Shown here in pieces: positions 1,849 to 4,961 of a stretch of 43,892 nucleotides of DNA; positions within the stretch are counted from its first letter, which is position 1; every line of letters begins with the position of its first letter. The notes beneath the pieces were generated by a model, which was given only the letters and a program-made list of their open reading frames with translations, made no database searches and was not told where the DNA came from. The position numbers were made by a program, and so were the translations under genes. The DNA is from Helicobacteraceae bacterium (lineage in GTDB: Bacteria > Campylobacterota > Campylobacteria > Campylobacterales > SZUA-545), in contig JAIRNH010000054.1 of the NCBI GenBank assembly GCA_031258155.1, forward strand, positions 1 through 43,892, in the 5' to 3' direction.

Positions 1849-4562
1849 CTAATACTCGTATTTCACATTAGCGTAGAACTGTCTGTCCATAGCGTAACCT
1901 TCAATGTTGCTCGAACTCGTCGAATAGCTGGCGTCGTTTTTACGATTTAGCAGGTTTAATACTTCAACGCCAAGCGTCAGTTTGTTTTCTCCATACTTCA
2001 GCGTATAATCAAGGTTTAGATCGACGTTAAAAATATCGCCGAAATGTTTGGATTCATACTCTTTAGTGGTTAAACCGTTGGAATCTTTCAATACGCTATC
2101 GCCAATATATTTATACCCGTCAACGCCTTTTTCATATCTAGCGTTTAATCCTAAACGCAAAAAGTCGCTAAGCGCCATATTATGCGCGTAGGTTATCACC
2201 CACGGGGCGTTATAATCGGGAGACGGCATCTCTTCGGCTTTTTTTAACGCGCCGTCATAGGTTACGTGCGTTCGAGAATATGACGGATCGTCGGCGCTTG
2301 AGAATCTTAACCCGTTCATATTGGTTTTCGCTTCAGAATTAGTAATGGATAACTCTGAAAAATGCCTTGTCGCGCCTAATTCATACTCTTTAGCGGCGCT
2401 AATGGTAACGCCCCAATAACTGCTTTTGCCGTCGTTGGTATTATAATACTCCCATAAGCCGGTAGTTACCGCGCTTTTTTGCGCTTGCTTTAGCTGATCT
2501 TTGTGCTCTCTATTTACAAAATCAAGCTTAAATAAAGTATCCCATTTTGCCAACGACGAACCTACGCTAAACTCGTCCGAATAGGGCGTTTCTATCCCAT
2601 CTAGGCTATAAGTTTCATCTCCGCCCCAACCGGGAATAACAACTGTCGCCCACGGGGCGCTAGCGGCGCTTCTTCTGCGCGTATAAGAGCCGTATTCGTA
2701 AATGGAGTTGTAAAGCAACAACCCGCCGTAATATCTATTGTAACCGCCGTATAAGTTCCAAACCTTATCGTTGAAAATATCGGCGTTAGCGTATAGTCTT
2801 GGCGCTATATCGGTATTATCCGTAACCGTATCTGTAGAGACTCTAACTCCCGGGCGAATAGTAAAGCGATCGACGCCTATACTATCCTCAAAAAACAGAG
2901 CCGCCGTTGTATAGCTTTTTTTATTGTCGATCGGTTCATATACGTATAGCGTGCCAGCCCACTGCTCGCCGTCTATAATACCGTCCTCTTTGCTTCCCGT
3001 AACGCCCGCGTTGAGTCCGCCGCCGCACCATGAGCCGTCAATGTCGGCGCAGAAGTAATAGGCTTCGTCTCTTTTATATTGCGCTTTGCCAAACTCGGCT
3101 TCCGCGCCCGTTTTGATCAAATGGGTAAAAGCGCCTGATTTTATCTCGTCAAAATCAAGAACGCCTTTGTAGATGATAGCGCTTTCAAGAAACTTCTGAT
3201 CGCCCGTATTACCTTCGCGCGTTCCCCAACCGTTAGAGGTATCCCAATTGGCGTATCCCAGCGTATGTATCCATAAATAATAGTAGTTTGTGTCGCTATC
3301 TGCGGCAAACTCGTCTTGTTTATACGCAAGCGTATTTTTAAGCGTAGCGAAATTAAGCGTATTTTTTACGTCCAAAGCGATATTTAATCCGCCGCCCTTT
3401 TGGTCGAAATCGCTGTTATATCTCGTTTCGGGATAATACATAGCGGCGGTATAAGGAGCGTATATAGCGGTTAAACTCGCCTCAAGGTTATCTATATTGC
3501 GCGTATTAAGCTTAACAAGATAATTATCGTTATCTCTATATTGCGTCCTATGCTCTTTATAGGTTGTCGTAGCCGAGCTGTTTATATCATATAACGACCA
3601 AAGCGGTATCTTTGAATGCTGTTTGCTATAGCTTAGCATTAAGCCTAAATGATCGCTTATGGGTCCGTCGGCGGCAATTGCGTATTCGTATTTATTAAAC
3701 TCGGGCTGATAGCTAATATCGGTGGATTTATCGGTATTTTTCTGATCGTCGGTAAGATGAAACTGCGCCCAATCGTCTTTGGTATAGCGGTATTTAGCCA
3801 TAAAATGCCATCTGTCCGTTCTAGCGTCCTTTAACTTTGCGTCGATTACGCCTCCCGTAAAGCCGCCGTATTCGGCTGAAATAGCTTGAGAGCGAACGAC
3901 GACGCTTTCGAGCAAAGAGGGATCGATAAACAGCGATTGCGCCTCGCCCGACATGTTGCTCCAAACGTCTGCGTCAAGCCCGCCCGGGTTTAGGTTGTTG
4001 TTGTTGCTTACGCCGTTTATCATGAAATTATTTTCATAATGTTGAGCGCCATAAATAGATATTCTTGGAGGGGCGATCTCGCCGCCTGTCGCGGAACTTC
4101 TGAAATTTCTGGAAAATTGAACGCTGGAGTCGGATCGAAGGGAATCGGTTATAGAGCTACTAGGAGCAAAAGCCCCCCCCGCTCGTCGGTTATTAGAATT
4201 TCGCCCAGCTTCTGCGCGTCGGAACGATTCAGATCGCTCGCCGCCGCTTGATCGCCAATCGCTTGCGTCTGATCGCTGGCTATCTGATCGCTCCCCGCCT
4301 CATTAACCGCCAACCTTTGATCGCCGTCGCCAAGCGCGATCGTCTGCCCGCTCGCCGCCTCATTGACCGCTAACCTTTGTTCGCCGCCGCTAAAAACCAG
4401 CGTCTGATCGCCAATCGCCAACATTTGGCTACCGCTTATCTGATCGCCCGTCGCCGTTTGAGCCTTAACCCTTTGCGTCTGATTAAGGACTTGTTCGTCC
4501 GCTTGAGCGGATAAAAAGAGAGCCATAGAGAGAACTAAAGCTCTAGTTGCCGTTGATAACAT
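1849..4562 (-). pseudogene. TonB-dependent outer-membrane receptor, out of frame at a poly-G tract (probably phase-variable)
   Basis: Starts at ATG 4562 after an AAGGA ribosome site. Codons 1-21 are a signal peptide (MLSTATRALVLSMALFLSAQA), followed by about 90 residues of low-complexity, Gln/Asp-rich imperfect repeats (QRLAVNEA occurs twice), then LGEILITDERGG leading into the plug. The frame breaks at eight consecutive G on the coding strand (4173-4180) and terminates soon after. The other frame is open from the tract onward and reads plug sequence PRISIYGAQHYENN-FMINGVSNNNNLNPGG, then a long beta-barrel ending YANVKYEY with an aromatic terminus as in outer-membrane proteins. Nine or six G would join both parts into a protein of about 904 residues, normal for TonB receptors. 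Substrate unknown; the PepSY-TM neighbour suggests chelated iron or another metal. An alternative is permanent loss or an indel error. Confidence 0.85.
4173..4180 (-). repeat. Homopolymeric G tract (8 G on the coding strand) in the TonB receptor gene
   Basis: Eight C on the plus strand, i.e. eight G in the receptor mRNA, between codons GAG and CTT/GCT at the start of the plug domain. Tract length decides the reading frame: at eight the receptor is truncated within 10 codons; at nine or six it is full length. Poly-G tracts of this size inside genes are the classical phase-variation device of Campylobacter and Helicobacter. Confidence 0.85.
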
Positions 4563-4961
4563 CGGTTTGTCCTTTTTTTTGATTTGATGTTTTTGAAATT
4601 ATCTATTCCGAACCTATCCCTAACGCTTCTCGCGATCCGTAAGAACCCAAAAGAACAAGAACCGCGTCCTTGTCCTCTCGATCTCCCCCGAACCGCTCTG
4701 CGCGCAAGGACATTTGATAGATAAAGTCAAAATCGTTTGCAATTCTAATACGCTTTCCTTAAATTATTATCTTGACGGCGCTGTTTTTTTGAGCGCAAAT
4801 TGATTTTTTCAAGGTTTTTTATTGATTTTCGCTGTTTCTAACCTCGCGCAAATGGAGAACGGCGAAAAGCGCCGTAAGTTTGCCTTCGCTTTTACAAATC
4901 AAGATTAGGCGCGACATTTAATCCGTTTATGCGTGATATAATTCAGGTAAAGGAACTAAGA
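4563..4961. promoter_or_regulatory. Divergent intergenic region upstream of the TonB receptor
   Basis: About 400 bases separate the receptor start (minus) from the coiled-coil protein start (plus). It contains an 8-T run (4573-4580), which is poly-A just ahead of the receptor ribosome site, and an AT-rich stretch around 4755-4830 (TTAAATTATTATCTT) suitable for promoters. This stretch bears a weak resemblance to an AT-rich Fur box, but no convincing 19-base palindrome was found. No gene was recognised. Confidence 0.4.

Follow-up and report, generated by a model that had tools for sequence, protein, structure and literature searches.

The stretch of DNA analysed here (43,892 nucleotides, GC content about 50%, hereafter the window) is contig C54 of an assembly of 1.94 Mb in 71 contigs that is 97% complete. 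Its minus strand carries a receptor gene in two pieces lying in different reading frames, with a PepSY-TM gene directly downstream. The first piece is a leader ORF of 137 aa (positions 4149–4562, ATG at 4562), preceded by what may be a Shine-Dalgarno motif (GGA after A8, 4570–4572, 7 nt before the ATG); a search upstream of the receptor for a sigma-70-like promoter gave none, a result of little weight in this bacterial group. As read from its translation, the leader begins with a putative signal peptide (MLSTATRALVLSMALFLSAQA, 4500–4562) and ends at a TonB box, LGEILITDE (4182–4208), assigned by its motif and corresponding to LDEIVVTD in homologues. The two are joined by a Gln/Asp/Ala-rich, low-complexity linker (4229–4483) made of 60-nt and 17-nt repeats, including two 60-nt direct repeats that are 78% identical (4283–4402). 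The length of this linker is highly variable among homologues, the leader ranging from 59 to 133 aa. Immediately after the TonB box comes a tract of eight G on the coding strand (4173–4180), seen on the plus strand as C8 (CCCCCCCC) in the context AAAAGCCCCCCCCGCTCG. The second piece (1849–4170) encodes the plug and beta-barrel of a FusA-like TonB-dependent receptor in 773 stop-free codons. The PepSY-TM gene (568–1710) is intact but for one codon, an in-frame TGA at 1018–1020; a locus in another species, L006, has glycine at this site and a further one, L007, is also open.

With G8, the leader frame reads LGEILITDE-RGGLLLLVAL up to its stop, ten codons beyond the point where the tract begins. 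No stop interrupts the plug and barrel frame from upstream of the tract down to 1849, and this frame lacks a start codon that connects with the leader. The earlier note had located the break between the leader frame and the plug and barrel frame at G8, and had calculated that nine or six G would rebuild a receptor of about 904 residues. We find the same break in the sequence and the same arithmetic and size, and the orthologue at L006 is intact and in phase, with 904 open codons. In phase, the tract would form part of a glycine run. It is unique in the window, since no second G/C run of six or more occurs anywhere in the 43.9 kb. Markov models of the window, of second and third order, predict 0.17–0.20 runs of at least eight; a chance origin of G8 was considered and rejected. 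An insertion sequence or recombination break at the tract was likewise rejected, as both flanks align to homologues.

With regard to the identity of the receptor, the downstream frame matches Pfam Plug (2.8e-07) and, among solved structures, aligns end to end with the Pectobacterium ferredoxin receptor FusA (4zgv, E 8.4e-76), with 6ofr as the second match. Together with the signal peptide and TonB box recognised by motif, these matches place the gene among the TonB-dependent receptors, whose hallmarks are a signal peptide, a TonB box, a plug and a 22-strand barrel. No NCBIfam family matched, heme and haemoglobin receptor models included, and an AlphaFold prediction for the downstream frame, with three homologues in the input, gave a pLDDT of 25, too low to be informative. 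The likeness to FusA covers both plug and barrel, but FusA and its wider clade are not known to be phase-variable. The Fus system combines FusA with the M16 protease FusC and with a TonB of its own, FusB, whereas the M16 members of the present genome lie on contigs C45 and C21 and none stands beside any of its three FusA-like receptors; the window receptor thus stands outside a Fus-type neighbourhood, which gives no support to a role in ferredoxin import.

To place the tract in a wider context, homologues were collected by a protein search over 100 relatives, with one genome per species; close homologues came from the window's own genus, g1, and one related genus, g6. Nine FusA-like receptors in five genomes, the window gene and two paralogues in its own genome (C53 and C12) included, carry a G tract at the identical site, in the order TonB box, tract, plug, with TonB boxes such as LDEIVVTDQ and LDEILVTEK before it. 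The tract lengths are 8, 11, 12, 14, 14, 14, 14, 15 and 16. When phase was called by comparing the frame of the leader ATG with that of the plug, three of the nine were in phase (G14 in genome G006, G15 in C53 and G11 in C12) and six were out of phase (G8 in the window, G14 twice in G011, G16 in G003, and G14 and G12 in G004). All three phase sums are thus represented, both out-of-phase states among them, and three of nine in phase is the one third expected under drifting length. The variation is seen within sets of orthologues as well: the window set (67–74% identical) contains the window G8, G14 in G011, G14 in G006 and G16 in G003, and the C53 set (76–80% identical) contains C53 itself with G15 (on), G004 with G12 (off) and G001 with an interrupted run.

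Interrupted runs bear on the role of the glycines. In L008 (GGGGGAGGGGGAGGA) and L103 (GGAGGAGGAGGGGGA) the glycine run is kept in A-interrupted codons, which indicates that the glycines belong to the protein; such codons would be less slippable. The receptor at L101 has neither tract nor glycine run, and the more distant homologues in the order are without a tract at this site. From its presence in g1 and g6 homologues and its absence from the distant ones, the switch arose in this lineage, with the run becoming interrupted in some copies. L103, with its interrupted glycine run, also shows (4300–4420) a frameshift at a C7 run within the plug (APPK); this may be an error or else a further site of slippage.

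Length change on a short time scale is illustrated by two CirA-like receptor genes of G004 (L106 and L118). Their leaders are identical over about 200 nt, their tracts are G14 and G8, and identity then falls to about 70%. The tract length has therefore changed before any substitution accumulated in the identical flank. The pair also suggests that a leader with its tract can be transferred from one paralogue to another, gene conversion being the probable route.

The tract in the window is also one of many. G/C runs of at least eight number 62 in addition to that of the window, a count taken from 260 kb of stretches chosen around such runs and not from the whole genome. Within these sampled stretches, internal runs number 91 at length 5, 10 at length 6, none at length 7 and 37 at lengths 8–19 (38 with the window G8), so that the runs of 8–19 form a separate, expanded class. 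About 19 G-coding tracts, the window's included, lie inside or at the start of long frames; nine of them continue a frame opened by an ATG, another nine are out of phase, their ATG leader lying in a different frame, and the state of the last one is unclear. Glycan and surface functions are represented by an O-antigen ligase, two acyltransferases, FkbM/TylF methyltransferases and a glycosyltransferase, and the other tract genes include a subtilase, a TetR regulator, an RCC1-repeat protein and two CirA-like TonB receptors; in all, at least five TonB receptor genes of this genome bear tracts. MutS1 and MutL, searched for as MutS_I and MutL_C, were not detected in the genome, although both were found in 11 of 14 control genomes, and their absence fits unstable homopolymers, as expected. 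Runs of at least ten number 21–52 per genome in all seven genomes of g1 and in the three of g6, whereas no such run occurs in five other genera of the family, indicating that the phasome was gained or lost inside the family. About 25 of the runs of at least eight, one of them G72, lie within 150 bases of contig ends (for example the end of C52, the start of C5 and the end of C48); these are in part assembly artefact and in part, perhaps, places where assembly broke at tracts of mixed length.

Taken together, we consider it probable, at about 0.86, that G8 is a slipped-strand on/off switch in the gene of a FusA-like TonB-dependent outer-membrane receptor, and that the assembled copy is OFF. The tract has the properties of poly-G phase-variable genes: it is an intragenic homopolymer that reaches the usual minimum of 7–8 G/C and exceeds chance, a change in its length toggles the frame between intact and truncated (as judged by the window frames and by homologues in both phases), and its length varies at the same site among related copies, namely G8–G16 in the nine homologues and also in the G004 pair. 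The earlier note had proposed phase variation, a reading that calls for length differences among relatives. These were found, in-phase and out-of-phase copies alike, and the proposal gains further support from the set of tracts in the genome and from the absence of MutS1/MutL. Replication slippage at the run would gain or lose Gs. In one phase of three, the signal peptide, linker and TonB box would be joined via the glycine run to plug and barrel to give a receptor of about 900 residues, whose imported ligand is presumably metal-bearing or a protein. Each of the two remaining phases would end translation within about 20 codons and leave a short secreted leader peptide as the sole product; the assembled G8 copy, being out of phase, would be in such a state. 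We infer a useful rate of slippage in the population and continued reversibility of the OFF copy. G8, shorter than the other eight tracts, is expected to slip the slowest, so that the window copy is probably the least switchable.

That same short length, along with the PepSY stop, favours a different interpretation, in which a former switch has contracted to an out-of-phase G8 in a dead or dying gene, the locus is decaying, and the stop in the PepSY partner is a second lesion. The PepSY stop may indeed mark a locus in decay or idling. However, the PepSY gene is otherwise intact, and in G011 an open receptor frame has no PepSY gene adjoining, from which the partner seems dispensable. Against its orthologues the frame gave dN/dS values of 0.12–0.15, which are rough since dS is about 1.6 and near saturation, and the window branch carries 32 silent and 13 replacing changes, much like its sister branches, so that its replacement rate is not raised. 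The frame is stop-free over 773 codons and without a second frameshift, and these substitution patterns indicate that it has been under purifying selection, which disfavours an old dead gene; a recent loss of selection would stay invisible at a dS this near to saturation. On balance we regard a dead or dying gene as unlikely.

Still less probable is that ribosomal or transcriptional slippage on the G run, whether programmed or incidental, allows the out-of-phase gene to make some receptor at full length. Slippage can be promoted by runs of G, and leaky expression is compatible with the data, but programmed frameshifting needs one fixed phase, and the tracts range from 8 to 16 in length over all three phases and include in-phase copies; programmed frameshifting was rejected for this reason. 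That the tract is an assembly or sequencing error in a gene truly in phase we consider hardly credible: homopolymers are error-prone and some contig ends of this assembly are clearly artefactual, as the G72 run illustrates, but a run of eight bases is not long for Illumina reads, independent assemblies of several species contain out-of-phase tracts as well, and about half of the intragenic tracts of the genome are out of phase.

Returning to the on/off switch, the three in-phase lengths G11, G14 and G15 might in addition represent glycine hinges of differing length, slippage then both switching the receptor and tuning its coupling to TonB, so that a single cell line could vary which of its three FusA-like receptors are on and the strength with which they couple. 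We put this forward tentatively, as a rather doubtful extension. The tract site, a glycine hinge that follows the TonB box, is tolerant of changes in length, and this may explain why the tract became fixed in several paralogues.

Switching of TonB receptors by poly-G is already known from HmbR of Neisseria, for which lengths of G8 to G15 have been reported (PMC3786947). The Neisseria HmbR and HpuAB systems resemble the present gene in that poly-G lies within coding sequence of a TonB-dependent receptor system and its length modulo 3 decides between on and off, but they belong to another bacterial class and another receptor family. The glycines that the HmbR tract encodes fall in the barrel's periplasmic loop T4 (PMC3068627), and the HpuAB tract lies in the lipoprotein gene hpuA, whereas the present one stands between TonB box and plug. 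The window gene does not group with the HmbR-type haemoglobin receptors, as its tract precedes the plug and NCBIfam gave no match. The new element appears to be a tract in this position that is conserved across paralogues. Our search of the open literature returned no papers on a homopolymer switch associated with a TonB box and none on poly-G phase variation in insect-gut Campylobacterales, both of which count as weak evidence.

Also comparable are the phasomes of Campylobacter and Helicobacter as catalogued by PhasomeIt, which likewise contain many tracts in surface-modification genes. In a Campylobacter phasome the customary criterion is a G/C tract of at least seven, and every such tract of at least eight in C. 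jejuni NCTC 11168 varies between longitudinal isolates (PMC6321876). Tract-bearing genes common to the Campylobacter phasomes and the present genome are a DUF2172 gene of the Cj1295 type, methyltransferases and glycosyltransferases. In contrast, TonB is unmentioned in the text of the Campylobacter survey, which lists the heme/hemopexin transporter HxuB (PMC6321876), while tract-bearing TonB receptors recur here.

The host is most likely a termite. The close homologues come from Helicobacteraceae or Campylobacteraceae bacterium MAGs named Kf353_bin5, Nm470_bin46, Cc175_bin116 and Gx481_bin170. Campylobacterales MAGs are reported by a survey of termite guts (PMC9137090), and these isolate names seem to be of the sort that such a survey would give. 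The immune exposure that the earlier note had offered as one selective pressure thus needs rewording. With an insect-gut host, mammalian antibody is excluded as the driver, and phages, bacteriocins or nutrient competition become the candidates; entry of phages or bacteriocins through the receptor may be the selective agent, being a common fate of TonB receptors. Phase variation of receptors by poly-G, best known in human-adapted Neisseria, would thereby be extended to uncultured Campylobacterales that probably live in insect guts, and a general test becomes accessible, namely whether, in a group with no detectable mismatch repair, one kind of switch is recruited repeatedly to one and the same site in its receptors.

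Three further loci of the genome, C17:2209, C11:2317 and C1:11297 (L105, L117 and L052), share a common leader (LLALITAL..), with tracts of G11, G14 and G12 immediately preceding the hydrophobic stretch of the signal peptide. Two of these are CirA-like TonB receptors, and the third, of 672 aa, is without a match to a Pfam family or a solved structure. At C20:3143–3155 (L066), a C13 tract marks the end of a DUF2172/DUF4910 gene; Cj1295, a member of the gene's family, is listed as phase-variable in C. jejuni, which suggests shared phasome content. Finally, out-of-phase tracts start the RCC1-repeat protein at C10:8364 (G16) and the TetR-family regulator at C52:6705 (G15), a few hundred bases from a tract-free TonB receptor gene; a switchable TetR-family regulator would be unusual.
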